A DNA stretch of 41,916 bases from NCBI GenBank assembly GCA_019359695.1, contig JAHHGV010000060.1, forward strand, positions 1 through 41,916. Reading direction: 5' to 3'. This stretch comes from Brasilonema angustatum HA4187-MV1 (lineage in GTDB: Bacteria; Cyanobacteriota; Cyanobacteriia; Cyanobacteriales; Nostocaceae). The notes under the pieces are model-generated. The model saw nothing but the letters and a program-made list of their open reading frames with translations. It was not told where the DNA came from and did no database searches. Below are positions 13,577 through 39,242 of the stretch, one piece after another. Position numbers and translations under genes: made by a program. Within the stretch, counting starts at the first letter, position 1. Every line of letters starts with the position of its first letter.

Positions 13577-13621
13577 AAAATCAACTTGAGGCGGAAGTTA
13601 GAAAGATAAAATTTTTATTTG

Positions 13622-13752: not shown

Positions 13753-13775
13753 TTCTAGTTTCTACCTTTATTTGT

Positions 13776-14126: not shown

Positions 14127-14137
14127 AATCTTTTGTG

Positions 14138-14179: not shown

Positions 14180-14219
14180 GTTGTTCTACTAATCACTCAC
14201 AACTAACGAATAACCAGTT

Positions 14220-15167: not shown

Positions 15168-15185
15168 GGGGTCGCCTCCCTTCAT

Positions 15186-16285
15186 ATAAGGTCTTGCTAG
15201 TAGACAAATTTATTGCCTTGAGTGACACTTTCGTTATCGTGAAAACCGTCTTTACCAGTGTCCTTAAGGGGCAGTCCGACGCCCTTGCGGGTTCGCCAGC
15301 TCCCTATGTCGGTAAACCCCAACACAACAGCCAGATCTGGCAGGGGGGGAAACATCGGTGCTGCACTGGTCTCACCAGTTGGCCAGAGTCAGCAAACCCG
15401 TTCAAGGGAAAGCTCTTCAAGTCGAGCCTGGGCTGTGCTTCAGTGTGCTCCTTTGTAGACGTTCTTTGGGTAATTTTGCCAAATAAGGCTGCAAGTGACG
15501 TCCGGAGATCAACAGAACACCTACTATCTTTGAGGATGCCGAAAAGCGCGTCTACAAGCTGACAAACCCTTTCACCAGTTCTTTTGGGGAAACCAGGCAA
15601 CTGCGGTCTCTCCTGCAAAGACGGTATGTGAACTAGGGAGGGCATTGCCAACGTCAGTTGCATTCTAAGGAGCACCAACCCCGTGCGGGTATCTCCTATG
15701 TTCTAAGCCCTATGCCTACGGCATAGGGCTTAGACCAGTAACAAACGTACGCTAAACCTGGCACAGAGCACCTGCCGAACCACAACACAGTGGCAAGGAC
15801 AAACAGTTGTACACGAGTACCCTTGATTAAACGGCTGTTTTCATACTCGGAGGAACTTGTACAAGTAGTCCTTTCAAGTCGGCAAAGCCTTTTGCTAGTT
15901 GCTTGCTTTCGGGTTACCCTGTTGGAGCTTACACTCACCATGCGGCTCTGCCTTCTCGAATGTACTTAATGCCCCCTTAAACTACGAGGTTTATCAAACT
16001 GTATGTCCAATGATGGTGAAGTTTGATCCCAAGAATTGCCAACGGGCAGTAATGGTCTTTTGTTATTTGAAGTTTCGAGTTTTCAGGGGGAAGTTGATCA
16101 GTGGAACGAAAGAAAACTCTCCGTAATGGGGGTCTTTCGTATAATCCTTGATGCAACCTAGGTTTTCTCAAACTTCTCGCCCTTACCCTATGGCTAACGC
16201 CACGCCTTACGGCTATCGGGAACGTCCGTCGCCTAGGTCGGGAAAGCCGTCATTCGCGCTGGACTTACCGCTTCATAAATTCTCT
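15186..16285. other. 1.1-kb non-coding insertion between rpsK and rpoA
   Basis: A stretch richer in G+C than the other intergenic regions, lacking any convincing gene. Frames up to 124 codons exist on the minus strand but show no recognisable protein. It contains repeat-family motifs (GCGGGTTCGCCAG, GGGGAAACC, TCACCAGTT), a 15-bp perfect hairpin (15702-15734), and the palindrome-like GCTAACGCCACGCCTTACGGC near 16194. In other cyanobacteria rpsK and rpoA are usually separated by roughly 50-200 bp. Minus-strand transcripts of rpoA must either cross it or start inside it, so a separate rpoA promoter is possible. Confidence 0.6.
15702..15734. repeat. Perfect 15-bp hairpin with 3-nt loop
   Basis: TCTAAGCCCTATGCC, loop TAC, then its exact complement. 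The core TGCCTACGGCA is also found at the left window edge near base 24 and is a frequent palindromic repeat in these genomes. No T-tract follows on the operon strand, so it is probably a repeat or RNA stabiliser rather than a terminator. Confidence 0.6.
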
Positions 16286-16684
16286 TTAGACTCGGCGGCG
16301 CTTGGGTGGACGGCAACCATTATGAGGAATCGGGGTAATATCCCGAATTAATGTAATTTCTAGTCCAGCTCCTTGAAGTGCCCGGATAGCTGTTTCTCGA
16401 CCAGCCCCAGGACCGCTGACCATAACTTCTATTTGGCGCATTCCTTGATCCATTGCTCGACGTGCTGCACTTTCAGCTGCGGTCTGGGCTGCAAAAGGAG
16501 TACCTTTTTTTGCTCCCTTGAAACCGCTAGATCCAGCACTTGCCCAGGAGATGACATCTCCATTTTGATCGCTAATGGTGACAATGCTATTGTTAAAAGT
16601 AGACTGGATGTAGGCTATCCCGTTTGGAACATTACGTTTTAGCTTTTTGCTACCTGGTTTCTTTCCGCTTTGTTGTCGCGCCAT
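16286..16684 (-). CDS. rpsK: Ribosomal protein uS11
   Basis: 132 residues. [49 protein letters not shown] and the terminal [19 protein letters not shown] are diagnostic. S11 shapes the 30S platform. It is 57 bp downstream of rpsM and is followed by the large non-coding insertion. Confidence 0.97.
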
Positions 16685-16740
16685 ATCGCACTTAGTTAAA
16701 TATTAAGGTTAAGTATTGCTGTAGTTCAGCACAGAAACAA

Positions 16741-17121
16741 TTACTTGGATGGGGCTTTCTTCTTCCCAGCTACTGTCTGTCGTCTTCCTCGACGAGTTCT
16801 GGCGTTAGTCCGAGTTCTTTGCCCTCTCACAGGTAAGCCCATGCGGTGACGACGACCCCTGTAAGTGCCAATTTCAATTAGGCGCTTGATGTTCATTGCT
16901 TCCAAGCGCCTTAGGTCACCTTCTACTTGGTAGTTTTCTTCTATTTCTCCCCTCAGAGCTGCTACGTCAGCATCACTCAGGTCTTTAATACGAGTATCAG
17001 GGTTGACACTCGTGGCTGCTAATATCTCTTTTGATAGAGATAACCCAATTCCGTAGATATAAGTTAGACCAATTTCAACACGTTTATCACGTGGAAGGTC
17101 TACTCCGGCAATACGTGCCAC
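16741..17121 (-). CDS. rpsM: Ribosomal protein uS13
   Basis: 126 residues: [25 protein letters not shown] at the start, the [28 protein letters not shown] block and a lysine-rich tail, all typical of S13 at the 30S head. It follows rpmJ after 100 bp. Confidence 0.97.
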
Positions 17122-17221
17122 AACTCGTGTCTCCCTATTCCTTAAAACTAGTAATGTGTTTTTTGTCAGTCAGCAGTTATTTGAATAAATTTTCCTGATG
17201 ACTGTTCACTTTTTCCTTGTG

Positions 17222-17335
17222 TTATCCTTGGCGCTGCTTATGCTTAGGATTGACACAAATCACCATAACGCGACCACGACGCCTGATCACGTTACACTTT
17301 TCACAAATTTTCTTGACAGACGCTCTGACTTTCAT
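17222..17335 (-). CDS. rpmJ: Ribosomal protein bL36
   Basis: A 37-codon gene: [19 protein letters not shown], then [18 protein letters not shown]. The zinc ligands C11, C14, C27 and H32 are all kept. It is in the conserved place between infA and rpsM. Stop TAA is at 17222-17224, start ATG at 17333-17335. Confidence 0.96.
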
Positions 17336-17475
17336 GCTTTTTGTTGACTCCAAATAGTGAATTATAACATTTTATGATTAATCAGTCAGTAAAATTCATT
17401 ATTTTTTTCCAATCTTGTATGGTATTATTTTTTACATATGTGAAATTTCATTCCGAAGAATAGTTGAAAAATGAG

Positions 17476-17700
17476 CTATTTCTTACGTAATCGATAAGTA
17501 ATTCTGCCTTTTGTCAGGTCGTAAGGCGTTAACTCTACTTTGACGCGATCGCCGGGTAAGATCTTGATATAGTTACGGCGAATCTTGCCAGAAATGTGAG
17601 CTAACACATTGAAGCCGTTATCTAAATCAACACGAAACATTGCATTTGGCAGGGACTCGGTGACCGTGCCTTCCATCTCTATCAAATCTTGTTTAGACAA
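17476..17700 (-). CDS. infA: Translation initiation factor IF-1
   Basis: 74 residues forming a single S1/OB fold: [60 protein letters not shown]. The initiator is TTG at 17700 (SKQDLIE follows), with GAGGAAAAAAC upstream. It lies 140 bp before rpmJ and 205 bp after adk. Confidence 0.95.
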
Positions 17701-17905
17701 GTTTTTTCCTCAACTCAACAGCCTCCTACTTTGTTACAGCTACTTATAGTCTGCAAAGAACATATTTCGGAGAATATATCAACAGTTCATTAATATATTT
17801 TATCCAATATTTACATACATCTGCTTGGGGGACAGGGAATAGGGTGCTAGGTACAAAGAACTGGGAAAAATTTATCACCTTTAACCTCTCACCCACTCCC
17901 CTCTT

Positions 17906-18460
17906 TTAAGACACAATGACCTTTTTTAATTCAGCAGTGACTTCTTCTAGGGACTGATTACCGTTGATACTGAGGAGAGTCTGACGACTACTGTAATAGT
18001 CAATCAAGGGTGCCGTTTCAGACCGGTAAACTTCTAAGCGACGACGGATGACTTCTTCTGAGTCATCTTTTCTGCCTCGCTCTAGTAACCGTGCTATTAC
18101 TGTTTCATCTGGCACATTCAAATTGACGACCTTTTCGCCATTTTGGTTGAGTTTTCCCAGTAATTGCTCTAAAAAAACTGCTTGATTGACAGTGCGGGGA
18201 AAGCCATCAAGAATCCAGCCTAATTTCGTATCATCCTGGATGAGACGTTCCTGAACCATTTCCTCCACAAGTTGGTCAGGAACCAACTCACCTTTATCCA
18301 TATAACTTTGAGCCTTCACACCCAAAGGAGTCTGGTCTTTGAGACCTTGACGCAATATGTCACCTGTAGAAATATGAGGAATATTCAAATCGTCAGCTAA
18401 GGTTTTTGCTTGAGTTCCTTTACCAGCTCCCGGTGGTCCCAAGAAGATTACTCGTGTCAC
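17906..18460 (-). CDS. adk: Adenylate kinase
   Basis: 184 residues: P-loop FLGPPGAGKGTQ at the N-terminus, the AMP-binding STGDILRQGLKDQTPLG, WILDGFPRTVNQA, and a short lid (ERGRKDDSEEVIRRRLEVYRSETAPLIDYY). It is the short type without the roughly 25-residue zinc-lid insertion, usual in cyanobacteria. It starts with GTG, overlapping the secY stop by one base (TAGTG), so translation is coupled. Confidence 0.96.
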   Translation of the reverse strand: MTRVIFLGPPGAGKGTQAKTLADDLNIPHISTGDILRQGLKDQTPLGVKAQSYMDKGELVPDQLVEEMVQERLIQDDTKLGWILDGFPRTVNQAVFLEQLLGKLNQNGEKVVNLNVPDETVIARLLERGRKDDSEEVIRRRLEVYRSETAPLIDYYSSRQTLLSINGNQSLEEVTAELKKVIVS

Positions 18461-19773
18461 TACTGTTTCACCATTCCTTCATAGCGTTGAGAGATAACGT
18501 AAGTTTGAATTTGCTTTGACGTATCAATCGCAACACCTACTAAAATTAACAAAGAGGTAGCACCTAGCCCCCTAAAGGTTCGTACATTTAAAGCACTTTC
18601 AACGGCAGTAGGGATAATAGCAATCAAGCCCAGAAAGATAGCTCCTAAAAAAGTTAATCGATTCAGTACGCGCTCAATGTACTCACTTGTTGCTTTTCCC
18701 GGACGAATACCTGGAATGCTAGAACCCATCTTCTTCAAGTTCTGAGCTACATCAACTGGGTTGACAATCAATGAAGAATAGAAGTAGCTGAAGAAAACGA
18801 TAGAAACTAGGTAAACAAGGGCATAGACCCAAGCCCCTGAACCGCCAGGTATGAGATAGGTGTTAACAATTTTTGAATATTCTGGATTTCTGATGAAATT
18901 CTCGGCCAACAGTGGCAAACTTAGAATTGCAGCCGCAAAAATAATTGGCATGACGCCCCCTTGATTAAGTCGTAGGGGTAAGTAGTTACGTTGCTCTGCA
19001 AAAATTCGTTTCCCAACTTGGCGACGCGCTGAAATAATCGGAATACGACGGATTCCTTCCTGCACAAACACAATACCAACAATCGTGACTAGGAAAAGCA
19101 GCAACAGCACAATAACTCGACCTACTGTTTCCCGGTTTCCTGTTTGTACAAAATCGATTGTGTCACCTAGAGCTTTTGGCAGTGTTGCCACAATATTGAC
19201 AAAAATCAACAAAGATGCGCCGTTGCCTACGCCACGCTCTGTAATCACTTCTGATGCCCACATGACAAACATCGAACCCGCTACAAGAGCCAACGCTGTC
19301 TCGATAATGAAAATTGGTCCGTAGTTTAAGGCAAAGGGCTTGAGCCAGAATGTTGCCAAGAAGACACTTTGAATAACTGCCCAACCAGCAGAAACATAGC
19401 GTGTCATTTGAGAAATCTTCCGCCGTCCTGCTTCGCCTTCATTTTTCTGTAAATTTTCTAAAGCTGGAATGGCAGCGGTGAGCAATTGGATGATAATCGA
19501 GGCGTTGATATATGGCAAAATACCTAAGGCAAAGACTCCCAAAGCAGAAAGTCCACCTCCAGAAAAGATGTCCAAAAAGCTTAATATCTGGTTATTACCT
19601 TGAAGGGTTCTGGCAAATTGAGCTCGATCAATACCTGGTATGGGCAAATGTATGCCCAGACGAATCAACATTAAAAGACCTAAGGTCACAAGCAGCCGAC
19701 CTCGCAGACCTGCTGCTTGCGCCATCTGCATAAAAGTTTCTTGAGCCGTTGGGGCTTTGTCTCGACTGATCAT
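18460..19773 (-). CDS. secY: Protein translocase subunit SecY
   Basis: 437 residues with about ten hydrophobic helices. LLVTLGLLMLIRLGIHLPIPGID is helix 1, followed by the plug region around IFSGGGLSALGVFALGILPYINASI; the cytoplasmic loop RRIPIISARRQVG and the final GTSLLILVGVAID-like helix are characteristic. The protein forms the Sec channel in plasma and thylakoid membranes. It sits between rplO and adk in the standard spc arrangement. Confidence 0.97.
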   Translation of the reverse strand: MISRDKAPTAQETFMQMAQAAGLRGRLLVTLGLLMLIRLGIHLPIPGIDRAQFARTLQGNNQILSFLDIFSGGGLSALGVFALGILPYINASIIIQLLTAAIPALENLQKNEGEAGRRKISQMTRYVSAGWAVIQSVFLATFWLKPFALNYGPIFIIETALALVAGSMFVMWASEVITERGVGNGASLLIFVNIVATLPKALGDTIDFVQTGNRETVGRVIVLLLLFLVTIVGIVFVQEGIRRIPIISARRQVGKRIFAEQRNYLPLRLNQGGVMPIIFAAAILSLPLLAENFIRNPEYSKIVNTYLIPGGSGAWVYALVYLVSIVFFSYFYSSLIVNPVDVAQNLKKMGSSIPGIRPGKATSEYIERVLNRLTFLGAIFLGLIAIIPTAVESALNVRTFRGLGATSLLILVGVAIDTSKQIQTYVISQRYEGMVKQ

Positions 19774-19844
19774 AGAGGGCTACCTGAATCGTGAAGCGAG
19801 GCACTTGGCTGGGGTAGGCTTGTCGTAGGTGCGTGCTTTGTGAC

Positions 19845-20291
19845 TCACTCTAAAACTTCGCAACTCCCACCCGCTGCCTCAATTTTGCTACGAGCTGTAC
19901 CTGTAAAAGCTGCCGCTTGCACCTTGAGGGGAACGTTCAATTCCCCATCCCCTAAAATCTTCAAAGATCCTCGAACAGCAGTAAGGATACCTGCTTGTTT
20001 TAACGAGGTGAGTGTAACTTCTGTATTTGCAGGGAGGGAGGCTAGCTTTTCTACATTAATCGTAGTGTACTGCTTACGATTAACCAGAGGGAAGCCCTTT
20101 AACTTGGGTATGCGGCGGTACAATGGCTGTTGACCACCTTCAAATCCGGGTCGTGTACTGCTGCCAGAACGCGCTTTTTGACCACGCATACCCTTACCAG
20201 CACTAGCACCTTGACCGGCAGAAACACCCCTACCTAAACGACGGGGACGCTTCTTTGAGCCTTTTTGAGGACGAACATCGGTTAGTCTCAT
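19845..20291 (-). CDS. rplO: Ribosomal protein uL15
   Basis: 148 residues. [56 protein letters not shown] and a C-terminal [20 protein letters not shown]. The glycine/arginine-rich N-terminal extension penetrates 23S rRNA. It lies 72 bp before secY. Confidence 0.97.
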
Positions 20292-20485
20292 AAAGAAAAC
20301 CTTGTGTAAAATTTAGTCATTTATCATTCGTGAGCCACTACAGACACTGCTTTGTTGGCGCAAGCTTCCGCAGGAACTGGGGCGTAGCCATACTGGTGGG
20401 CTACAAAACATACACGTGCAAAAGGTATACCCGGAGGATCATTTGTTGTCATTTCTATAAAAACAAAGGACTGAGGACAAATGAC
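20292..20485. repeat. Repeat-bearing spacer between rpsE and rplO
   Basis: A 194-bp gap with GGCGCAAGCTTCCGCAGGAACTGG and GTGGGCTACAAAAC-type dispersed repeat sequence, flanked by TTGTCATTT micro-repeats. No coding frame or terminator-like structure was recognised. Confidence 0.4.
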
Positions 20486-21010
20486 TTAAATATAAAGATT
20501 TTCAACAGGAATACCCCGGTCTTCGGCGACTTCTGCAAAAGTTCGCAGGGTAGACAAGGCATTAACTGCGGCTCTGGCATTATTGAGAGGATTGTTTGAA
20601 CCGAGTTGCTTGGCTAGAATATTGCGAACTCCTGCTAATTCAAGTACTGTACGTACAGCACCACCAGCAATAACTCCAGTACCAGGTGCAGCTGGTCGCA
20701 TAATGACCTTAGCACCACCACCAATCCCATTAATAGGATGGGGGATAGAGTTAGATTTGGTCATGGGAATTTCAATCAGATGCTTTTTACCATCAGCGAC
20801 GCCTTTTTTCACAGCACCAATTACATCTGAGGCTTTGCCTACTCCCACGCCCACTTGACCGCGTTCATTTCCCACAACGACTATTGCGCGGAAGCTAAGT
20901 TTTTTACCTCCTTTTACAACTTTACTCACCCGTCGGATTTGGATAACCCGCTCTTGCCATGTGGTTTCTTCTTTTTTTGTACGGTTAGCTTTACGACGAC
21001 CAGTTGCCAT
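20486..21010 (-). CDS. rpsE: Ribosomal protein uS5
   Basis: 174 residues. [46 protein letters not shown] is the dsRNA-binding-like S5 N-domain, and [36 protein letters not shown] the C-domain. Involved in decoding accuracy and helicase activity of the 30S entry tunnel. Standard length. Confidence 0.97.
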
Positions 21011-21069
21011 TTTATTTACCTCGTGTTAGAAGCCAATTGTCATTTGTCCTCGGTCATTTGTCATTTTTT

Positions 21070-21235
21070 TTACTGAATGAACGGCAGGTGACGCCAGAGG
21101 CTCCAGTTGGGGAGACCCCAAGACGAGCCACTGCTGCATGCAGGAGGATCTCCCGCTCTCACGGCATGTAGCGTCCGTACTGGCTCCTGTAGCCTAACCG
21201 AACCCGTCCACCGCACTGCCTCCTCATGACTCATG
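21070..21235. repeat. Dispersed repeat cluster between rplR and rpsE
   Basis: A GC-rich insertion in a 238-bp gap: GACGCCAGAGGCTCCAGTTGGGGAGACCCCAAGACG..., then GGAGGATCTCCCGCTCTC and GTACTGGCTCC. The CCAGTTGGGGAGACCCC element closely resembles CCAGTTCTTTTGGGGAAACC at 15574, so it appears to be another member of the repeat family found at 13622 and 15255. Confidence 0.5.
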
Positions 21236-21248
21236 AGCAATGACTCAT

Positions 21249-21611
21249 TTAAAAATCCAAACCAGCTTCGCGAGCTGCTTCTGCTAGTGCTTTGACACGA
21301 CCGTGGAAAAGGTTACCACCTCGGTCAAAGACGACTTTGCTAATACCTTTTTCTAAGGAGCGAACTGCGATCAATTTGCCAACTTCCACTGAAGCTTGAC
21401 AGTTTGAACCTGAAGCTAATTTTGATTTTAAATCTGGTTCTAGAGTTGAAGCTGCCACTAAGGTGTGATGATTAGTATCATCAATCACTTGAGCATAAAT
21501 ATGTTGGTGAGAGCGAAATATAGCTAACCGTGGACGCTCAGAAGAACCATCAACTTTACCACGAATACGTCTACGGCGACGTTCCCTTGATTCTTTACGA
21601 GTATGTTTCAT
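21249..21611 (-). CDS. rplR: Ribosomal protein uL18
   Basis: 120 residues: [33 protein letters not shown], then [11 protein letters not shown] and the closing [30 protein letters not shown]18 binds 5S rRNA. Only 2 bp separate it from rplF. Confidence 0.97.
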
Positions 21612-21613
21612 TT

Positions 21614-22162
21614 TTACTTCTTGCCTTTACCACCAGTCTTACCAGCTTTACGTCTGACCATTTCACCGGCGTAGCGAATACCTTTGCCCTTGTAAGGCTC
21701 TGGTGGCCGCACAGCACGAATTTTAGCTGCTGTGTTGCCTACCTCTTCTTTGTCGTAGCCGCTGACAATAACGTTAGTATTATTTTCAACTGCAAACTGA
21801 ATTCCTTCTGGTGGAACAATGTGCACTTGATGGCTATAGCCCATGTTCAAAATCAAGTTACGACCTTGAACTTGCGCCCGGTAACCAACCCCTTGAATTT
21901 CCAAACGACGTTGAAACCCTTTGGAAACTCCCTCAACCATATTGGCAACCAAAGTACGGCATAAACCGTGCATTTGCCGGGACGTGCGAGATTCATCGCG
22001 ACGGTTAACCTGCAATATTTCTCCTTCTTGGGAGACTATGACATAAGGAGGCAAATCGCGAAAAAGTTCGCCTTTAGGACCCTTGACTAACACTTTTGTG
22101 CCATCAATGTTTACTTGCACCTTAGCCGGAATTGTAATTGGGCGTTTACCAATTCGAGACAT
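21614..22162 (-). CDS. rplF: Ribosomal protein uL6
   Basis: 182 residues: [69 protein letters not shown], and [31 protein letters not shown] at the end, all family hallmarks. L6 lies near the factor-binding site of the 50S subunit. Confidence 0.97.
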
Positions 22163-22220
22163 AACTTTTAGTCCTTTGTAATTTGTCTATTGTCTTTTAC
22201 GAATGACAAATGACTAATGA

Positions 22221-22622
22221 CTACCAAACGTAGCACAGTACTTCACCACCCAAGTTTTGACGCCGTGCTTCTCGGTCAGTCATAATGCCACTTGATGTAG
22301 AAATAATGGCAATACCGATACCACCTAGTACTCTTGGTAGTTCTTTTTTGTTGGAGTAAACACGCAAACCTGGTTTACTCACCCGCTTGAGGGTGGTGAT
22401 GAGGGGTTGGCGATTTTTACCCTTGTACTTCAAGGAAATCACCAAATTGCACGCCACTCCTTCTCCTGCTTCTTCAAACTCACCAATAAAACCTTCTTCG
22501 CGCAGCACTTTTGCGATGCTACGAGTCATTTTGGTGGATGGCACTTGTGTCGTTTGATGCCGCGCCATATTGGCATTGCGGATGCGCGTGAGCATATCTG
22601 CAATTGTGTCGTTAACCGCCAT
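22221..22622 (-). CDS. rpsH: Ribosomal protein uS8
   Basis: 133 residues: [18 protein letters not shown] at the start, [19 protein letters not shown], and the C-terminal [28 protein letters not shown]8 is a primary 16S rRNA binder and, in E. coli, the spc operon autoregulator. Typical length. Confidence 0.97.
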
Positions 22623-22642
22623 CGTTTCCTCTTTAGATGAAC

Positions 22643-23191
22643 TTATTGATCCCGAAAGGGCATTCCCATTTCTTTAAGTAAAGCGCGACCCTCTTCGTCA
22701 GTCTTTGCTGTAGTGATAATGGAAATATCCATACCACGAATTTGGTCAATGCTGTCATACTCAATTTCTGGGAAAATGAGTTGCTCTCTGACACCTAGAG
22801 TATAATTGCCGCGACCATCAAAACTTTTAGGACTAATACCGCGAAAGTCCCGGATTCTTGGTAGCGCTAAACTAATGAGACGGTCGAGAAAGGCATACAT
22901 TCTTTCGCTTCTTAAGGTCACCATGATACCAACTGGCATACCTTGACGAATTTTGAAGCCCGCGATCGCCTTTTTAGCCCGCGTCACGACTGGTTTTTGA
23001 CCAGTAATTGTCGCAATCTCGGTCAAAGACGCTTCCAAGGCTTTCGCATTTTGAGATGCTTCCCCCAAACCTCGATTAACAGTGACTTTCTCCAACTTTG
23101 GCACTTGATGAATGTTGGTGTACTGAAACTGTTGCATCAGTTTGGGGACAATTGTTTCTTGGTATAAAGTTTTCAGTCTTGTTGTTGCCAT
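22643..23191 (-). CDS. rplE: Ribosomal protein uL5
   Basis: 182 residues: [99 protein letters not shown]5 binds 5S rRNA. It precedes rpsH by 20 bp; a 253-bp repeat-bearing gap separates it from rplX. Confidence 0.97.
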
Positions 23192-23284
23192 AGTTTTTGT
23201 TCTTTTTATCCCTGGTCTTGGTCAGGGATTATTGTCCTTACTCTTTGTCTATTGTCTTTTGTTTTTTTACTAATGACCAATGAC

Positions 23285-23435
23285 TTTCCGGGTTTGCCAC
23301 TTGACACGGCTGTGCTACTCTACTCTACGGGAAGCCGCCTAGGGGGTCTATGGAAAATCGGCCTCTAAACGTCTACAAGTCAATAAACTGTAGCCTAGCA
23401 CTTGCTTTCATATGCCGACAGACCCGCTTTCGAGC
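23285..23435. repeat. Repeat-bearing insertion between rplX and rplE
   Basis: A GC-richer patch in a 253-bp gap, containing GGTTTGCCACTTGACACGG, CGGGAAGCCGCCTAGGGGG and GACCCGCTTTCGAGCAGT. It is flanked on one side by TTGTCTATTGTCTTTTG micro-repeats (23240-23262). No gene or clear terminator is visible. The equivalent spacer in most cyanobacteria is short. Confidence 0.4.
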
Positions 23436-23444
23436 AGTAACTCA

Positions 23445-23798
23445 CTACTTATCTATGATTTCGCCAGTTTTTTTAAGCATTCTAACTTTCTTACCTTCTG
23501 CAGTGAAAGTGTAGGAGATGCGACTGGCAACATTTTGCTTGGTGGAATAGAGCATAACGTTGGAACTGTGGATTGGGTATTCCTGAGTCACAATACGCCC
23601 AGATTCACCTTCTTGCTGAGGTTTGACGTGCTTAGTTTTTATATTTACACCTTTAACAAGCACTTTACTTTCTTGGGGAATTGCTTTGATAATTTCTCCA
23701 ACTTTGCCTTTATCTTTCCCCGCAATAACTTGCACGGTATCCCCGGTTTTAACGTGCATTTTGAAAAATCTAGGTTGCTCCTTCTTTTTGTTTGCCAT
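23445..23798 (-). CDS. rplX: Ribosomal protein uL24
   Basis: 117 residues with the KOW motif [23 protein letters not shown], then [23 protein letters not shown] and [12 protein letters not shown]24 nucleates 50S assembly. Its ATG overlaps the rplN stop by one base (TAATG), indicating translational coupling. Confidence 0.96.
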
Positions 23799-24166
23799 TA
23801 CAGCACCTCCGGAGCCAGAGAAACAATTTTAGTAAAGTTTTTTTCACGCAGTTCTCGTGCTACTGGTCCGAAAACCCGTGTTCCTCTGGGGTTACCATCT
23901 TTATTGATGATAACTGCGGCATTATCGTCAAAACGAATACTCATACCACTATCTCGATGGGTATTATGACGGGTGCGGACAATGACTGCTTCCACAACAT
24001 CGGACTTTTTCACAGCCATATTCGGCTGAGCGTCTTTAACGACGGCGATGATCCGATCACCGATGAAACCGTAACGGCGGTTACCTGCTCCCAATACGCG
24101 GATGCACATGAGTTTACGGGCACCGCTATTATCTGCAACATTAAGGTAAGTTTGGGGCTGAATCAC
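23798..24166 (-). CDS. rplN: Ribosomal protein uL14
   Basis: 122 residues: [26 protein letters not shown], a [24 protein letters not shown] block, and [29 protein letters not shown] at the end. L14 lies at the 30S interface and binds the silencing factor RsfS. Full length. Confidence 0.97.
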
Positions 24167-24214
24167 AATCGTTTTTTCCTTTTTGTCTTGTTAACTACTT
24201 AATAACTATATGGT

Positions 24215-24463
24215 TTAGCCATTTTTAGTAGTCAGGATTTCTGTGACTTTCCAGCGCTTAGTTTTACTCAGCGGCCGCGTTTCCTGAATGCGAACGCGAT
24301 CGCCTATTTTGCACTGATTTTCTTCATCATGTACCTTATAGCGCTGGGTTTTTACGACTATTTTGCCGTATTTTGGGTGAGGAGCGCGGTTTTCGATGGC
24401 GACTACCACCGTTTTTTGCATTTTGTCGCTTACGACCAAGCCAACTCGTTCTTTTACTGCCAT
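24215..24463 (-). CDS. rpsQ: Ribosomal protein uS17
   Basis: 82 residues, an OB fold with [57 protein letters not shown]. Length as expected. It lies 6 bp after rpmC. Confidence 0.97.
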
Positions 24464-24469
24464 AATCTT

Positions 24470-24700
24470 CTACTTTGATTCTTTTACGGGTTGACTTGAG
24501 GAAGCGCGTTTGCGTTCTCCTTCTACAGTCATTAGTTGAGCCAGACGGTGGCGGGCGTGTCTAAATAGATGGGGTTTGTCTAGCTGTCTGGTTGCTTGTT
24601 GCAAGCGCAACTGAAAGAGTTGCTTTTTTACAGCGATAATCTCTTGCTCCAGTTGTTCGTCAGTTAAAACTCTTGCTTCTGAAATTTTGGGAAGAGGCAT
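24470..24700 (-). CDS. rpmC: Ribosomal protein uL29
   Basis: 76 residues, a helical hairpin: SEARVLTDEQLEQEIIAVKKQLFQLRLQQATRQLDKPHLFRHARHRLAQLMTVEGE. It has a roughly 10-residue serine/lysine tail. L29 is near the exit tunnel and contributes to SRP and trigger-factor docking. Only 3 bp separate it from rplP. Confidence 0.96.
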   Translation of the reverse strand: MPLPKISEARVLTDEQLEQEIIAVKKQLFQLRLQQATRQLDKPHLFRHARHRLAQLMTVEGERKRASSSQPVKESK

Positions 24701-24703
24701 AAC

Positions 24704-25129
24704 CTAGACCTGTTGTTGCTCTTGTGAGCGTGAAATGAACTTAGTTTTGATAGGTAATTTGAAAGCAGCCAAGCGCATTGCTTCGCGAGCAGTTTCTTCA
24801 GGAACGCCTGCAATTTCAAATAGAATTCGTCCTGGTTTTACGACTGCTACCCAGAACTCAGGTGAACCTTTACCAGAACCCATCCGGGTTTCTGCTGGAC
24901 GCATAGTCACTGGTTTATCAGGAAAAATCCGAATCCAGATTTTTCCACCCCGGCGGATGTAACGAGTCATTGCTCGACGAGAAGCCTCTATTTGACGAGA
25001 GGTAATCCAAGCAGGTTCCAACGCTTGCAAAGCAAAATCCCCAAAGTTCAGGTCGCTACCCCGATGGGCTAGACCATTCATTCGTCCGCGTTGTTGTTTG
25101 CGGAATTTTGTTCTTCTTGGACTTAGCAT
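24704..25129 (-). CDS. rplP: Ribosomal protein uL16
   Basis: 141 residues: [65 protein letters not shown] and [20 protein letters not shown]16 helps shape the A-site. The strictly conserved MGSGKG loop is intact. Confidence 0.97.
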
Positions 25130-25197
25130 GATGTGTCAAAAGTTAAAAGTCAAAAGTGAAGGTAACAAGTCGAAAGCTATGGACTAATAACTTATGA

Positions 25198-25989
25198 CTA
25201 TCCTTCATTTGAGCGGTCTTCAAATTGCTGACGACGACGTTGTTGTTGACGGCGAGAGGAGGGACGATCGCGGTCGCCACGGTCACGATCGCGGTCGCGA
25301 TCACGATCCCTCGTTGTTGGCGCAGGAGTTTGTTCCTGTCCAGGAATAATTTCTCCTTTGAATACCCACACTTTTATGCCGAGAATTCCGTAAACAGTTT
25401 TTGCTGTACAGTATGCGTAATCAATATCAGCTCGTAAGGTGTGTAAAGGTACTCTACCTTCACGAGTCCACTCTGTCCGGGCGATTTCTGCACCGTTAAG
25501 CCGTCCGCTGACTTGAATTTTGATGCCTTGTATACCAGCGCGTTGGGCACGTTGAATGGCTTGCCGTACTACCCGCCGGAAGGAAACGCGGCGTTCGAGT
25601 TGTTGAGCGATGTATTCAGAAATGAGGTAAGCATCAGCATCAACTCGTTGGACTTCAACAACGTTAATACGAATTTGGCGATTGCTTCCCAACAATTGCT
25701 GGAGACCAGTGCGTAGAGATTCGATACCTTGTCCGCCTCGACCAACGACAACGCCGGGTCGAGCTGTACGTACCTCTAAATCAATTTGATCTGCTTTACG
25801 ATCAATCCGCACCTCAGAAATTCCAGCGTTGTTTTGTGCGTATCTACCCAGTTTTTGTTCTATATACTGACGAAGTTTGTGGTCTTCTTGTAAAAGTTCT
25901 GGATAGCGGCTAGGGTCAGCAAACCACCGGGATTGATGTTCTTGGGTGACTCCCAAGCGAAAACCTACTGGATGTATCTTCTGTCCCAC
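25198..25989 (-). CDS. rpsC: Ribosomal protein uS3 with Arg/Asp repeat tail
   Basis: 263 residues starting at GTG 25989 ([23 protein letters not shown]). The KH domain has [13 protein letters not shown], followed by the S3 C-domain [54 protein letters not shown]. After about residue 220 a low-complexity tail of roughly 35 residues begins (repeated RD dipeptides, then [10 protein letters not shown]), encoded by a CGATCGCGGT/CACGATCG-type DNA repeat. The tail is longer and more regular than in most bacterial S3. Confidence 0.96.
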
Positions 25990-26042
25990 AAATGCTTCCT
26001 CTAAACAAAAATTCTTTTGTGTACCTGTACGCTATTTTTTAT

Positions 26043-26405
26043 TTATTTAGCTGCAGTAACCTCAGCAGCGACAGCTACTGTAATATGACACGTCGGCTTG
26101 CGAATTTGGTAAGCACGACCTTGCGCCCTTGGTTGGAACCGTTTGAGTACCGGACCTTGATTTGCATAAGCTTGAGTAATCACAAGCTCTGTTCTGTCTA
26201 GCCCAGCGTTATGTTCAGCATTCGCTGCTGCACTTCTAAGTACCTTCAATACTGGTTCACAGGACCGATAGGGCATGAATTCTAGGATAATCAGGGCTTC
26301 CCGGTAGGAACGTCCTCTAATTTGGTCAAGTACGCGACGCACTTTATAAGGAGACATACGTACATAACGGGCGATCGCTTTTACTTCAGTCGTGTCTGTT
26401 GCCAT
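26043..26405 (-). CDS. rplV: Ribosomal protein uL22
   Basis: 120 residues: [53 protein letters not shown], and the tunnel-lining hairpin [28 protein letters not shown], all typical. It precedes rpsC by 53 bp. Confidence 0.97.
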
Positions 26406-26470
26406 AGTTTTCTCCGTCCGTTTGAGTCATTAGTCATCTACTAAGCCATAGCGTGACTAATAACTGATAA

Positions 26471-26749
26471 CTATCTACCTGATTTTTTGTCACTTCTGGC
26501 GTGACCCTTATAAGTGCGCGTGGGGGCGAACTCACCCAGTTTATGTCCTACCATTTGGTCACTTATAAAAATGGGAACGTGTTGGCGTCCGTTATGGACT
26601 GCGATGGTATGACCTACCATGAGGGGCAAAATTGTCGAAGCCCGTGACCAAGTTTTAATAACTTCCTTTTTATTGGCGTCATTGAGCCTTTCAATTTTTG
26701 TTAGGAGATGATCGGCAACAAAAGGACCTTTTTTAAGAGAGCGACCCAT
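26471..26749 (-). CDS. rpsS: Ribosomal protein uS19
   Basis: 92 residues: [72 protein letters not shown]. Complete. It is separated from rplB by 166 bp with an ATTTTGGATTTT-type micro-repeat and a long hairpin. Confidence 0.97.
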
Positions 26750-26853
26750 AGTTCGATTTTGGATTTTCGATTTTGGATTTCGATTTAGAAATTTGAATTT
26801 ACCAATTGTAGATTTTGGATTTTGAATTATATTTATAATCTAAAATCCGTCTT

Positions 26854-26893
26854 GAAAAGCTTTGAGCGGAGGTTTCCTCCGATCAAACTTTTC
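26854..26893. repeat. Long hairpin between rplB and rpsS
   Basis: The inner stem CGGAGG/CCTCCG has a TTT loop. It is extended by TTTGA/TCAAA and GAAAAG/CTTTTC with one mismatch and one bulge, giving a 17-bp interrupted stem. On the operon strand (minus) it is followed by AAGACGG, not a T-run, so transcript processing or mRNA stabilisation is more likely than termination. AT-rich GATTTTGGATTTT repeats flank it (26755-26820). Confidence 0.55.
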
Positions 26894-26915
26894 GCAAAAT
26901 CTAAAATCTAAAATT

Positions 26916-27779
26916 CTATGATTCACGACCGCCACGACCGCGCTTAGAAGATTTGCGGCGACGGCGCACAATAAACTTGCTACTGGCTTTCTTCCGTTTG
27001 CGTGTCTTGAAACCTAAAGCAGGTTTACCCCAAGGTGTGACAGGTCCTGATCTACCGATTGGTGCCCTTCCTTCACCACCACCGTGTGGGTGGTCAACTG
27101 GGTTCATCACACTACCTCTAACTTGAGGACGGCGACCTTTCCAACGAGTTCTACCTGCTTTACCTGCGCTCAGGTTTCTAGCATCCAGATTACCGACTTG
27201 TCCGATGGTGGCATAGCACTCGCGACGGATCATCCGGACTTCTCCAGAAGGCAACTTGAGTGTTACGTAGCTACCTTCTTTTGCCACAACTTGAGCAGTC
27301 GCACCAGCTGAGCGAACAATTTGACCGCCCTTACCAGGTTTCAATTCTACGTTGTGAACGCTGGTTCCCAAAGGAATGTTAGACAAAGGTAAAGCATTGC
27401 CATTTTCAATAGGAGAATCTGGACCAGCAACAACTGTTGTCCCTACTTTTAAACTGTTGGGTTGAAGAATGTAACGCTTCTCGCCGTCTTCATATTGCAC
27501 AAGGGCAATCCGCGCGTTACGGTTGGGGTCGTATTCAATAGCTGTCACTTTGGCCGGAATACCACGCTTATCCCTTTTAAAGTCGATAATGCGATACAGA
27601 CGTTTGTGTCCACCACCTCTGTGGCGAACAGTAATGCGTCCTTGATTATTTCTGCCTTTGGCGCGATGCTTCGATACGGTGAGCGATTTTTCCGGCTCGG
27701 TTTTAGTTATTTCCGAGAAGTCAGAAATCGTAACTTGGCGAGTACTGGGGGTGTAAGGGCGATAAGAACGAGTACCCAT
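26916..27779 (-). CDS. rplB: Ribosomal protein uL2
   Basis: 287 residues: [57 protein letters not shown], and the C-terminal [16 protein letters not shown] loop with the conserved histidine near the peptidyl-transferase centre. The end is a basic [16 protein letters not shown] tail. Complete. Confidence 0.97.
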
Positions 27780-27783
27780 TTTT

Positions 27784-28098
27784 TTAAACCTCTGGGAATA
27801 GAACTTGTCTAATCTTCTCTACATCCCCAGACGCCACTGTAACAATGGCTTTCTTATATTGGGGCTTGTAACCAAGAAATTTTCCAACGCGCTTTCTTTT
27901 GCGTGGTGGTCTTGTGGTGTTGACTTTTTCAACTTTTACTTCAAATAAATCTTCAATCGCCGCTCTAATTTGTGGCTTTGTTGCCTTTGGAGTCACTTCA
28001 AAAGTGTATTTGTTTTGCTCCATGAGTACGGTCGCTTTTTCAGTCAGTATTGGGCGACGCACAAGATCAGGAAGGTTTCGGGGGTCAAATCTAGTCAC
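27784..28098 (-). CDS. rplW: Ribosomal protein uL23
   Basis: 104 residues: [62 protein letters not shown]23 forms the chaperone docking site at the tunnel exit. Its start overlaps the rplD 3' end by 8 bp. Confidence 0.97.
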
Positions 28099-28723
28099 TG
28101 TAGACCTCCTGAATTTTTTCTAGGGCTGATGCTGTAACAACAATCTTGTCAGCGTGCAGCAAATCGTAAACATTTAACTGGTTAGATCCAATCAGTTTTA
28201 GATTTGCGACGTTACGGGCTGATAAAAAGACGTTGTCTGTACGTTCGGACAAAATTAATAAGGTTTTCTTTTCTGGTTCTGAACCCCAACGGGCGATCGC
28301 TCCCACTAATTCCTTAGTCTTGGGACGCTGGATCTGCTCGCTAAATTCTTCCACCACAATCAAATCGTCAATTCGACTCGCAAAAGCTGTTCGCAAAGCT
28401 AAACGCCGCTCTTTACGGTTCATCTTGAGGTTATACTCTCGCGGTTTTGGTCCAAATATGACACCACCACCACGCCACAAAGGAGAACGAATAGAACCAG
28501 CACGCGCACGACCAGTCCCTTTTTGCCGCCAAGGTTTGCGACCGCCACCTCTGACTTCAGAACGGGTTTTGGTACTAGCAGTTCCTTGACGAGCATTGGT
28601 CATTTGTCTTACCAAGGCTCGATGCACGACATGAGATGCCGTTTCTTCTTTGGCAACCTTGAAGTCGAACGTTTTTTGCCCGACTTGTTCTCCTTGCCAA
28701 TTTTTGACTACACACTCAAACAT
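28091..28723 (-). CDS. rplD: Ribosomal protein uL4
   Basis: 210 residues: [65 protein letters not shown] is the tunnel-constriction loop; the C-domain ends [24 protein letters not shown]. In E. coli L4 is the S10-operon autoregulator. Complete. Confidence 0.97.
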
Positions 28724-32544: not shown

Positions 32545-33684
32545 TTATCTTGAAGAGTTGGGAAAGGGTTCACCAAACTCAATTACTTTAGAATTGGGTA
32601 CTTTAGAACTGGGAGAACTGCGTGAACCAGTGGGGAGATTTGGGACTGGAAAATTTGACGTACCCAAAGAAGGAGCGCTATTGTTCGGATAACTGCCTTG
32701 ATGTGGAAAAGAGGGTGGGCTAAAAGCAGAACCAGGGAGTTGAGAGGAATTGTTCGGGTTCAGAGGCGGTACTTGAACAGATGGTGCTTGTGGAAAATTA
32801 TTTGTCGTTGCAGGTAAGGTTGTTAATGGTGGCGGTACACTGAAATCAGGAACTTGTTGTTGATTATAGGTAGTTGATGGTGGGTTGCCTGGAAGTTGTG
32901 GGAGATTATTAGACGTTGCAGGTGGTAAACTGCCTGGAGGTTGTGGGGGATTATAAACACCAAGTGGTGAGTTACCTGGCGGTTGTGGGGGATTATAGCT
33001 AGCTGATGGTAAGTTGCCTGGAGGTTGTGGGGAATTATTGTATACACTAGATCCTAAGTTACCTTGAGGTTGTGGGGGATTATTGTATACACTAGATCCT
33101 AAGTTACCTTGAGGTTGTGGGGGATTATAGATATCAGGTGTGTTGCTTGGTAGCGGTGGGGAAATATTTGTAGATGAAAAATTCCCAGGTAAAGAGGTAC
33201 CGTTGCTATCAACCAAAGGACGTAATACCCAACGGGTGGGATTTTCTCTAGAAACAGGTTGCAGTTGCACTCTTGTTGGAGCGATGGGGATTCCAGGTGC
33301 TAAATCCATAACAATACGAGTAACATCTGCGTTGAGTTGGGAAACGCGAATGCTTCGGATGGCTCCATAGAAATTTTGTTTGGTGGGAATTTTGCCTAAT
33401 TTAGTACCAGGCAAATCTATAACAATGCGTGGGGGTTGGGCGAGGTAAAAGTATCGAGGTTGTGCGGCTGCTGAGAGAGAAATTTCTAGTTGTGACGCCT
33501 CTGGGTAAAAGCGCCAATCCTCAAGCCTTGCTATTGGCGCTGCACTACTACTATTGCCCACATCAAAGCCATAAACGCTAAGAGGCTTACTGTAAAGCAC
33601 CCCTGTATACAAGGCAAACAAGGTAACGCGAAACAGATACTTGCAAAACCAGAAAAATTGTTTATTTTTTAATTGCTTGTCCAT
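32545..33684 (-). CDS. AMIN-domain periplasmic protein with Pro-rich tandem repeats
   Basis: 379 residues from ATG 33684 (MDKQLKNKQF); an in-frame start at 33729 is possible but would put 15 uncharacteristic residues before the signal. A hydrophobic segment (FRVTLFALYTGVL) serves as signal or anchor. Residues 45-135 are an AMIN domain: ARLEDWRFYPEASQLEISLSA, RYFYLAQPPRIVIDLPGTKLG, IRSIRVSQLNADVTRIVMDLAPG. AMIN domains bind peptidoglycan in amidases and secretins. The remaining 240 residues are low-complexity, with about six units of NPPQPxGNLxSSxYN. No catalytic amidase domain follows, so a structural or wall-associated role is inferred. Confidence 0.75.
   Translation of the reverse strand: MDKQLKNKQFFWFCKYLFRVTLFALYTGVLYSKPLSVYGFDVGNSSSAAPIARLEDWRFYPEASQLEISLSAAAQPRYFYLAQPPRIVIDLPGTKLGKIPTKQNFYGAIRSIRVSQLNADVTRIVMDLAPGIPIAPTRVQLQPVSRENPTRWVLRPLVDSNGTSLPGNFSSTNISPPLPSNTPDIYNPPQPQGNLGSSVYNNPPQPQGNLGSSVYNNSPQPPGNLPSASYNPPQPPGNSPLGVYNPPQPPGSLPPATSNNLPQLPGNPPSTTYNQQQVPDFSVPPPLTTLPATTNNFPQAPSVQVPPLNPNNSSQLPGSAFSPPSFPHQGSYPNNSAPSLGTSNFPVPNLPTGSRSSPSSKVPNSKVIEFGEPFPNSSR
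33035..33124. repeat. Exact 45-bp tandem duplication in the AMIN protein gene
   Basis: Two identical 45-nt units (33035-33079 and 33080-33124) encode NPPQPQGNLGSSVYN twice; four more degenerate units extend to about 32860. Period 45 keeps the frame. Exact identity of two copies indicates recent expansion, so copy number may vary between strains. Confidence 0.85.
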
Positions 33685-36953: not shown

Positions 36954-37709
36954 ATGGGATTAGGCGAACGCGTTAACCGAGTCATAAAAGCAAACTTGAA
37001 TGATATTGCAGGCAATTTCAACCGGATAGAAGGAGAAATGTTTATTGCTGGAGGAGGTGTAGCGGGTGCGGGAATTTCTGCTATGGTTGGCAACATGGGT
37101 CTAGCTGGCATGGGCACAGCAGTGGGAATTTATGCGCCTCATTTGATAGCTGTAGGGACGGTTACTGGGGCTGCTGCTTATGGAGTCAAAAAAGGAGTGG
37201 AAAATCAAGATCCTTTGGCTGTAGGTGCAGCAGTACTCGGCTCAGTTGGCGGTGCGGGTGTTTATGCAACGATCGGAAATATGGGATTAGTTGTGGCTGG
37301 CACGGGTTTTAGTATAGGCATGGCTCATGTCGTGTCTGTGGGCGCAGTAGTTGGACTTGGGGTTTACGGTTTGTCGAAAGTTCTGGACAAATCCGATAAT
37401 CTTAACAAAATAAGGTGCAGCATACAGCAAAGCATTGAAAGTACTACAGGAAACACTAAGCATTTGCAATTACAGTACAAGCAAGCTGAAGACGAAATCC
37501 AAGCATGGTATCAAGTCGCGGTGCTAGCTTTGAAAAAAGAACGTTTGGATTTGGCTCGTGAGGCTTTGAATCGCAAGTACATTTATCAAGAAACTGCTAA
37601 GAGTCTGAAAAATCAGATTGATCAGCTCCTCAGAGTTATAAGGGGTAGGCTGAAAACCCTTGAGGGACAGGCACGTAGTGCCGATTCCCGTACTTCAGGC
37701 AAGGGATGA
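36954..37709 (+). CDS. PspA/Vipp1-like protein with duplicated Gly-rich hydrophobic insert
   Basis: 251 residues. Residues 1-18 (MGLGERVNRVIKANLNDI) match the membrane-binding helix 0 of PspA/Vipp1 (IM30). Residues 172-238 match the helix 2/3 hairpin, including QAEDEIQAWYQVAVLALKKERLDLAREALNRK and YQETAKSLKNQIDQLL. Between them (about 30-145), instead of the coiled helix 1, lies a glycine-rich hydrophobic region made of two related 36-residue units: VGNMGLAGMG...AAAYGVKK (45-80) and IGNMGLVVAG...LGVYGLSK (107-142). The usual C-terminal helices 4-6 are missing. I infer an ESCRT-III-like protein inserted into, not merely bound to, a membrane. The last dozen codons may have been altered by the adjacent mobile element. 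Confidence 0.6.
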   Translation: MGLGERVNRVIKANLNDIAGNFNRIEGEMFIAGGGVAGAGISAMVGNMGLAGMGTAVGIYAPHLIAVGTVTGAAAYGVKKGVENQDPLAVGAAVLGSVGGAGVYATIGNMGLVVAGTGFSIGMAHVVSVGAVVGLGVYGLSKVLDKSDNLNKIRCSIQQSIESTTGNTKHLQLQYKQAEDEIQAWYQVAVLALKKERLDLAREALNRKYIYQETAKSLKNQIDQLLRVIRGRLKTLEGQARSADSRTSGKG

Positions 37710-37719
37710 AAGCCACTAC

Positions 37720-37735
37720 GTAGCCTTTAGGCTAC
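37720..37735. repeat. Subterminal hairpin of the IS605-type left end
   Basis: GTAGCCT, loop TT, AGGCTAC: a perfect 7-bp stem 9 bp before the tnpA stop codon. A second possible stem pairs GTAGTG near 37674 with CACTAC at 37714-37719, inside the 3' end of the PspA-like gene, so the element boundary may lie slightly left of 37710. Confidence 0.45.
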
Positions 37736-37790
37736 AATAAAGCTTATTCTCGCTGCTGTGCAATATAGTTCTTAACCCTCTTTTGTCACT

Positions 37791-39101
37791 CTAGGCAGAG
37801 GAAAAGGAGAAATAAGGGATATTGAAGTTTGGAAAAATTGAACGAGTTAGATTATTGACAAGCATTTGAAGTTTAAAAAATCCTTCAGATAACTTAGGAA
37901 CTGTAAAAACTTGTAACCAAGGTTTAATTAGGTTAAATAGTACAAATGGTTGAAGTATCAAACGGAGATTATTAAGAATATTATTCCAAACATTTCCTTT
38001 ATCCCACCAAGGATGCGATGAAAAATTAGATTCCGATTGTGGTGGTAATTTCAGTAGTTGTTCAGAATGGAGACTAACCATTAAATAAGCACTCAAAACA
38101 ATTTTCCACCATTTTTCTATCTGGGGATAATTAGTTAGACGAAAATCTGCCCATCCTAATTCATTTTTACTCTGCTTTAAACCATATTCTACCCAAGTTC
38201 TTAAACCGTAAAAATTACCAACTTCTCTCGGCGTAATTTCTGGAAACTTACTCATTACGTACCAAGTAGTGTTTTTGGGAAGAACTTCAATATCCGTCGT
38301 GATTTGCCAATACCTAATTTCTGGATTATCGCCAGAGATTATCTCTCTAATATATCTATTTTCGGAACTTAAATCTGAAAAAACTCTCTTGAATCTTTGC
38401 CACTCTGAATACTTTACTTTTGAGTCTGTAACTCGCCAAGCATTATGATTCGAGCGAATTGCAACTATAAAATTTAGACTGAATTCATCTAATCTTTGAA
38501 TAAAATTCTTTCCACTCTCACCATAGAAACTATCTGCTAGGACAAGATTAAATTTAAACCCCATAGAGCGCAATTTTCTAATCATTATCGCTGCAATTTC
38601 AGGTTTGGTTAAATATTTATCCCCTGGTTGTAGCCTTTCTCTCGGTTTATATATTTCAAATATTAAAGGAAACGTCATTCCAGATAAGACACCATATGCT
38701 GTAACTGCAACAATACCATTGTCTGTTTTACCTAAATTTCCAATGTACTGCCGTTTGACATAATCCGTTGTATTTCCTTTTTTCTTATCCCCTGTTTCAT
38801 CAATAATTAATACTATTGGACGACCTTGAAGGATATATAGTATTAATTCTAATCTTTGTCTCCTTAATTCTTCTACATTCCAGGGTGATTCTGTTAAAAA
38901 ATGGTGTAACGGTTGATGATTTTCTAAGCCTGCTACTTTAGCGATCGCTGGCAGTCTTTTCCGTTTTATATCAGATACTATTCCCACATGAAGATATTTG
39001 AAAGCTTCAAAGCTTCTCACTTCTGTAAACAGCTTTTGATACAGCTGACAGTACTAATCTACAAATTTTACTGTAGGTGCTGGCGGACGAGGTTCAACCA
39101 T
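37791..39101 (-). pseudogene. IS701-family DDE transposase with an amber codon near its start
   Basis: The full frame starts at ATG 39101 (MVEPRPPAPTVKFVD) and meets TAG at 39054-39056, codon 16, then continues YCQLYQKLFTEVRSFEAF... to the stop at 37791, 436 codons in all. Family members I recall have D-E-Y where this copy has D-stop-Y, so a GAG to TAG change is likely. Catalytic residues are intact downstream: IIDETGDKKKG, LADSFYGES, and YGLKQSKNELGWADFR. A GTG at 39020 could restart translation and give 409 residues lacking the first 27. Whether that product is active is unknown. Confidence 0.8.
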
Positions 39102-39120
39102 ACTTTCTGCTTCGGTTTTC

Positions 39121-39155
39121 GCGATACGCTTTGCGTCAAGCCAGAGGCTTATCGC
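39121..39155. repeat. Palindromic repeat in the IS701 transposase leader
   Basis: GCGATA ... TATCGC bracket a unit with CGCTTTGCGTC and AAGCCAGAGGCTT, a known type of dispersed cyanobacterial palindrome. It lies between the IS right inverted repeat and the transposase ATG, an unusual place for a host-type extragenic repeat. Confidence 0.45.
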
Positions 39156-39242
39156 CCTTAATTATACTCTGCCTAGAGTGACAAAAGAGGGTTAACCGCT
39201 TCAGTAGAAATATTACCAGCAGTCGAAACAAAGTAGCTAGTA

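Follow-up and report, generated by a model that had tools for sequence, protein, structure and literature searches.

Sequence analysis of P0001, a 251-residue protein encoded by an ATG-started open reading frame at 36954-37709 (+ strand) of the window (the 41,916-nucleotide stretch of the Brasilonema angustatum HA4187-MV1 genome analyzed here), establishes an order of parts that runs from a Vipp1/PspA-type helix α0 through a duplicated hydrophobic module to the α1/α2-3 hairpin, with no α4-α6 behind it. We propose, with a probability of about one half, that this short form derives from Vipp1 and serves as a membrane-tethered ESCRT-III hairpin subunit, taking α5 in trans. The reading frame predicted at this position is real, and its parts and immediate surroundings are as follows:

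36954-37019, + strand: Vipp1/PspA-type amphipathic helix α0, residues 1-22 (PSSM, AlphaFold helix, dN/dS)
37029-37391, + strand: duplicated hydrophobic Gly-rich module, residues 26-146 (self-alignment, composition, occurrence elsewhere, dN/dS)
37038-37199, + strand: module unit 1 (GNMG...YGVKK), which aligns with unit 2
37221-37382, + strand: module unit 2 (GNMG...YGLSK), which aligns with unit 1; lone units are also found as small open reading frames of their own
37392-37535, + strand: α1 of the ESCRT-III hairpin, residues 147-194 (Pfam, phmmer, AlphaFold, Foldseek)
37545-37640, + strand: native part of α2/3, residues 198-229, beginning with the α5-receiving tip DLAREALxRK (AlphaFold, Foldseek, tip conservation)
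37641-37709, + strand: foreign 3' end of the reading frame, about 22 codons, probably mobile DNA (break in DNA identity to three relatives)
37772-39195, no strand assigned: insertion sequence, about 130 bp behind the break, bounded by 34-nt inverted ends and encoding a DDE transposase (37791-39020, − strand)

The genome that bears the window (8.5 Mb) carries, on another contig, two adjacent ordinary PspA_IM30 genes, one Vipp1-like with α6 and one PspA-like, and a scan of named genome contigs returned two relatives of P0001, in Brasilonema sp. CT11 (91% identity) and in a strain named Scytonema tolypothrichoides (86%). Elsewhere, the window holds a c-di-AMP riboswitch (Rfam RF00379, 72 bits; 4796-4991, − strand), a tandem repeat of 45/87 bp within an AMIN-domain protein gene (32884-33140) and, at 12252-28723 (− strand), an ordinary neighborhood with the genes for ribosomal proteins L13, L6, S3, L2 and L4, secY, adenylate kinase, rpoA and tRNA pseudouridine synthase.

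Helix α0 and the hairpin of the short form

The N-terminus of P0001, MGLGERVNRVIKANLND, scores 54 against a PSSM built from six canonical Vipp1/PspA α0 helices, compared with a maximum of 20 among 2122 control M-starts, and all 13 module-bearing N-termini tested outscore every one of these controls. AlphaFold models a helix over residues 3-25, with a pLDDT of 61-63 across residues 1-20. At the other end, the Pfam family PspA_IM30 (PF04012) matches residues 158-227 with its profile positions 43-112 (E 3.5e-8; 33.8 bits against a cut-off of 33.9, two other short forms reaching 44.4 and 47.1 bits), and phmmer aligns the protein from residue 143 on with residues 33-115 of solved Vipp1 chains. The AlphaFold model shows a 48-residue helix (147-194) and a partner (198-249) with pLDDT values of 83-97 across residues 151-250 and of 62 across 141-150, and Foldseek comparison with the PDB places Vipp1/PspA structures in all top seven positions (e.g., 8qbr, 6zvr and 4whe), the best at E 1.5e-3 and probability 1.00 and none at E ≤0.001. 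The original prediction of a Vipp1/PspA match at both ends is thus borne out by the α0 PSSM on the N-terminal side and by PF04012 and the solved Vipp1 chains on the C-terminal side, and neither end lacks a PspA-family match.

The same prediction held helix 1 to be absent and the module to stand in its place. Because the Pfam and phmmer alignments run inside helix 1, AlphaFold builds the helices and Foldseek retrieves Vipp1/PspA, helix 1 is present: residues 147-194 and 198-249 constitute the Vipp1 α1/α2-3 hairpin, the module is inserted between α0 and α1, and replacement of helix 1 is ruled out. Of the two motifs placed in helices 2-3, LAREALxRK indeed marks the start of helix 2, but WYxxAxLAL marks the end of helix 1. 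The α1 helix of P0001 is shortened at its start, with about 10 residues (Vipp1 24-33) having no counterpart; the short-form protein of genome G210 matches the PF04012 profile from position 21. Helices α4, α5 and α6 are missing from P0001 and 13 other short forms, the frames of which stop at about the end of α3, and since α4-α5 are absent P0001 is a truncated derivative rather than a complete PspA/Vipp1.

In an alignment of 14 short-form rows, which leaves out the copies of G002, G003 and G023 and in which the ends shown for G486 and G508 are identical, the tip residues D199, L200, A201, A204, L205 and R207 are invariant, L200 being the equivalent of Vipp1 L86 in all 14. Conservation extends beyond the tip, as the shaft residues I157, I161 and Q221 are likewise invariant. 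Tip conservation bears on the alternative of a free-standing membrane-stress protein, whose module and hairpin would bind the membrane as a protective carpet outside Vipp1 polymers. Such a carpet would be in line with a report that a cyanobacterial ESCRT-III protein depends crucially on its α1-3 hairpin to bind membranes (PMC12636044) and with self-assembly not being expected of a protein without α5. The longest run of invariant hairpin residues, however, is precisely the α5-receiving tip, which points to α5 contacts, although Vipp1 has the same conserved tip and simple inheritance may explain it; on balance we regard the carpet as unlikely.

The hydrophobic module and its architectures

The module consists of two copies of one ~54-residue unit, the local self-alignment scoring 116 against a maximum of 76 in 2000 shuffles, so that the suspected duplication of GNMG units is a true tandem duplication. 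Its 121 residues include 29 glycines and 9 charged residues; 19-residue Kyte-Doolittle means peak at 1.86 and exceed 1.4 only in the second half, and AlphaFold gives the module no resolved fold (pLDDT 23-44, residues 21-140). Its composition suggests that the module sits in the membrane. Fourteen members searched against Pfam at E values of up to 10 returned only the P21 holin (0.094) and CydS (0.56), each with a single member; the stand-alone module had no match in NCBIfam, PADLOC or PHROGs and none among plasmid sequences. One module-Vipp1 protein gave a weak PHROGs match over residues 120-185 to a family of unknown function (phrog_6647, 0.013). With the module as query, hmmsearch retrieved from the PDB sequences a 'Major virion protein' chain (5oxe, 0.0043) and a glycerol kinase-like protein (5.1); the 5oxe match probably reflects composition.

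The module is present in 44 of 386 cyanobacterial genomes sampled across the phylum and in 136 of 217 genomes of the window's family, and it occurs in four arrangements: (a) the module alone, in frames of 135-195 residues, or a single unit, in frames of roughly 66-118 residues; (b) the window's short form, made of α0, module and hairpin; (c) α0 and module followed by a complete PspA/Vipp1 body (about 340-390 residues); and (d) the module followed by PspA α5, WD40 repeats and a J-domain (about 590 residues), here termed WD40-J. A search for other GNMG-repeat proteins flanked by PspA pieces was thus successful, and P0001 is one of several module architectures. Among the matches listed, at least 14 of the 217 family genomes carry type (b), the window's cut copy included, and at least 79 carry type (d), counted by a frame length of at least 500, with WD40 and J-domain matched by profile in one protein and the rest classed by length, motifs and HPD. 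Thirteen of the 217 genomes searched, other than the window's, hold the short form in an open frame among the matches listed, as checked on fetched DNA; the fusion is therefore not peculiar to this assembly, and a chimera of assembly is ruled out. Two or more module genes lie within about 3.5 kb of each other in at least 16 genomes (17 with G506), of the at least 37 genomes with two or more matches listed.

In five type (c) proteins scanned, the PF04012 match begins right behind the module at profile position 9-14 and extends to 217-218 (E 2.6e-27 to 1.4e-47); by these alignments, therefore, the module lies between α0 and α1, at the same junction as in the short form. Over 205-206 columns, one such body shares 78-79% identity with solved Vipp1 chains, and α6 is present in some module-Vipp1 proteins (e.g., L044:5906-7048). 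In a tree of the modules, eight module-PspA rows group together (99/96) and eight short forms do so more weakly (95/12); a single clade of short-form and module-PspA modules survives the AU test (p 0.216), and two independent insertions at the α0/α1 junction are unsupported. The type (c) protein of G023 stands out: its body is 89% identical to the ordinary Vipp1 of its own genome and 47-58% to the other seven module-PspA bodies, its α0 and module are 54-68% identical to those of the other seven proteins, and the body tree places it beside the G023 Vipp1 (98/89). An AU test that left out one long-branch row (the LRAT protein G041_L119) rejected a single clade of all eight module-PspA bodies (p 0.0151) and did not reject one of the seven bodies without G023 (p 0.399). 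As judged from these comparisons, module and body in G023 are of different histories.

At five loci, a stand-alone module gene abuts or overlaps the gene of a ~125-residue HNH endonuclease, recognized by Pfam in one case and by motif in the others; these and a plasmid-borne module gene are:

L038:5297-6075 and L042:6766-7601, − strand: stand-alone module and HNH gene, each resembling a two-gene unit
L043:5804-6600, L101:5870-6717 and L082:1231-2020, + strand: stand-alone module and HNH gene, each resembling a two-gene unit
L108:3674-4795, + strand: module-PspA gene of the Nostoc sp. MS1 plasmid pNSMS104, annotated only as a PspA/IM30 family protein

Such neighborhoods raise the alternative of a conflict system whose effector, the module, would disrupt membranes or form pores, with the PspA pieces as membrane-targeting or protective parts and WD40-J as a sensor or regulator. 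The HNH gene directly after the stand-alone module, the patchy distribution across phylum and family, a mobilisable plasmid that carries module-PspA close to genes for HicAB and for GIY-YIG and PDDEXK nucleases, and a match of WD40-J to the PADLOC model HEAT-ARM_XIII (2e-23) would all fit an effector. That last match, however, is confined to residues 317-477, i.e., the WD40 repeats, and to 159 of the 1972 model positions, and of four other proteins compared with PADLOC two gave no match and two gave weak ones in their PspA part (GajA 0.017, PbeC 0.037). Furthermore, the module lacks a Pfam toxin or pore family, the P21 holin being its best match, and the complete Vipp1 bodies kept beside it, some with α6, would be needless for an effector, which we accordingly hold to be improbable.

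Two other kinds of hairpin protein came to light in the survey. In one, an LRAT acyltransferase domain precedes the same PspA hairpin without α5 (L034:1081-1764, + strand; L029:1468-2145, − strand); these probably correspond to the PspA-NlpC/P60 fusion of Ravi et al. 2024 (PMC11237479). In the other, two PspA-like hairpins stand in tandem near a WD40-J gene (L042:7674-8657, −; L050:672-1493, +; L063:587-1411, +; L145:4806-5675, −).

State of the window's gene and selection on the family

DNA identity between the window's copy and three relatives ends at 37639-37642, and the protein diverges from its relatives beyond residue ~229, so that its last ~22 residues are foreign. The break borders a cluster of transposons: behind it lie the insertion sequence with 34-nt inverted ends from 37772, a transposase of the HTH/DDE_3 type that spans two frames, and genes of the IS200/IS605 type. 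Sequence resembling the 3' end of the relatives' gene and what follows it lies at G000:C86:540 onward, at 96% over 2461 bases. No second copy of 37636-37790 exists in the genome, and the first 130 bases past the break fall in no mapped insertion sequence. Judging from the transposase genes behind it, the foreign end of P0001 is probably from mobile DNA; a mobile element appears to have split the gene, and the window's copy, without its native 3' end, may be heading for inactivation. Upstream, the divergent Na+/H+ exchanger gene occupies the same place in G001, G003 and G004. The short form is also interrupted in G003 and reduced to a remnant in G023, and together with the cut in the window these cases indicate that the gene is dispensable in places.

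The three damaged copies are what one would expect of a decaying relic, a Vipp1 copy minus its tail that persists by chance and of which the window's copy would be a pseudogene in progress, as is the whole-gene dN/dS of 0.46-0.64 for this copy against its three closest relatives, a value that includes the foreign tail. In the other five pairs of the family, however, whole-gene dN/dS is 0.26-0.33, and by part, from four pairs, it is 0.00-0.09 for α0, 0.23-0.31 for the module and 0.31-0.47 for the hairpin; the open frame, moreover, is kept in the 13 other genomes noted above. Sequence comparison places the family under purifying selection, and we consider a relic very improbable.

Proposed supply of α5 in trans and relation to known systems

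The α5 region of type (d) proteins aligns with Vipp1 160-220 at an hhalign probability of 97.7% (E 1.6e-12). Among 51 distinct α5 segments (from 57 rows, most of them called WD40-J by length and simple motifs rather than by profile), F168 is kept in 49, R170 in 50, F197 in 48, L200 in 43 and E208 in all 51; almost every row lacks residues 202-204. The DnaJ_bact profile matches residues 525-572 of L038:3518-5275, the one protein scanned, and [YF]HPD falls within the last 90 residues in 47 of 50 full-length WD40-J frames. Plasmid sequences yielded 190 records with WD40-J, none covering 80% of it, the best 10 of the 190 lying over the WD40 part. In Vipp1, L86 and L193 are found at the cross-linked contact of helix α5 with the hairpin, and the protein without α5/6 forms neither rings nor filaments (PMC8281802). 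By alignment, the short form carries the acceptor tip without the α5 donor and type (d) the α5 donor without the hairpin acceptor, and we infer a trans pairing of the short form with an α5 supplier.

The genes for the two proteins adjoin on one strand in four genomes (G016, G030, G210 and G462, with a 201-residue reading frame between them in G030), and G486 probably holds a fifth such pair, the contig ending within the second gene. For some type (d) genes, the neighbor is the two-hairpin protein instead. Another module or hairpin gene lies in the fetched stretch at 16 of 36 type (d) loci and at 20 does not, a count that is no rate, several loci having been picked for their known neighbors. 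Both proteins are encoded in 8 of the 14 short-form genomes, a modest excess over the family figure of at least 79 in 217, with three of the eight sharing one genus, and an obligate partnership is unsupported. The matches listed for six of the 14 (G005, G430, G442, G472, G508 and G533) include no module gene of WD40-J length, and any α5 received in trans there must therefore come from Vipp1 or PspA.

For the membrane-tethered hairpin subunit that we favor, each module unit would, by our own reading, have two hydrophobic stretches, so that the number of passes would be even and α0 and hairpin would be left on one cytoplasmic face. In Vipp1, the lumen is lined by the α0 helices, in a good position for membrane binding (PMC8281802), and the module would anchor the subunit at the face where these helices meet the membrane. 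Rings and filaments require α5, and the short form is therefore not expected to polymerise alone; its conserved tip would be offered to α5 from ordinary Vipp1/PspA or, where present, from the module-α5-WD40-J protein. The hairpin could then enter a Vipp1 filament via side packing and receipt of α5 and, without an α5 of its own, would end or seed the chain as a nucleating, capping or anchoring subunit; that the module protein anchors Vipp1 polymers is a fair guess. HSP70B, CDJ2 and CGE1 of Chlamydomonas assemble and disassemble VIPP1 in vitro (PMC10602608), and by analogy with CDJ2, WD40-J might dock its α5 on hairpins and bring Hsp70 to the polymer. More tentatively, and at odds clearly below even, the two proteins may constitute a split bacterial ESCRT-III, made of a tethered hairpin subunit and an α5-WD40-sensor-J chain with a shared module, whose growth would be licensed in trans and in which Hsp70 would replace Vps4, the ATPase that remodels eukaryotic ESCRT-III polymers (PMC13051332).

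What is new here is PspA/Vipp1 with an inserted membrane module, together with its shortened derivative; the PspA/Vipp1 family itself is known. The α0 helix, the α1/α2-3 hairpin and the conserved tip of the short form are homologous to those of Vipp1/IM30 and PspA (PF04012), from which it differs by a ~120-residue hydrophobic module after α0, an α1 shortened at its start and the lack of α4, α5 and α6. A search of the open-licence PMC literature found no description of the module, module-Vipp1 or α5-WD40-J. More than 98% of PspA homologues hold the PspA domain only, according to Ravi et al. 2024 (PMC11237479), who describe a PspA_IM30-NlpC/P60 fusion, tandem PspA and PspAA forms as well as operons with an AAA+ ATPase carrying β-propeller repeats. 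These forms have PspA as a fusion part in common with ours, and the LRAT-hairpin and two-hairpin proteins look like them; a propeller protein beside PspA is an analogy to WD40-J. The passages of that study on these forms mention neither hydrophobic module nor J-domain, and WD40 and DnaJ are absent from its main text.

The idea of a membrane-anchored hairpin has its closest counterparts among Vipp1-associated membrane proteins of chloroplasts and cyanobacteria, namely VIA1 and a PPR protein that has an ESCRT-III-like α1/2 hairpin and TM helices, described as membrane-anchored partners or proposed recruiters of Vipp1; the cyanobacterial homologue of the PPR protein is reported to have retained just the hairpin and the TM helices (PMC13051332). 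We set the short form beside them by description only, and it differs in that its α0 and PF04012 hairpin derive from Vipp1/PspA itself and its membrane part is the duplicated Gly-rich module. In the HSP70B-CDJ2-CGE1 system (PMC10602608), a J-domain protein brings Hsp70 to the Vipp1 polymer, as proposed here by analogy for WD40-J, which unlike CDJ2 joins J-domain, PspA α5, module and WD40 repeats in one chain. Assembly control of PspA homologues without a linked AAA ATPase has been called unknown (Ravi et al. 2024, PMC11237479), and the joining of a PspA α5 to a putative Hsp70-recruiting J-domain makes one answer directly testable. If our proposal is true, full Vipp1s and hairpin-only subunits with the module inserted would give bacterial ESCRT-III membrane-tethered and chain-ending subunits, like the specialised ones of eukaryotes.
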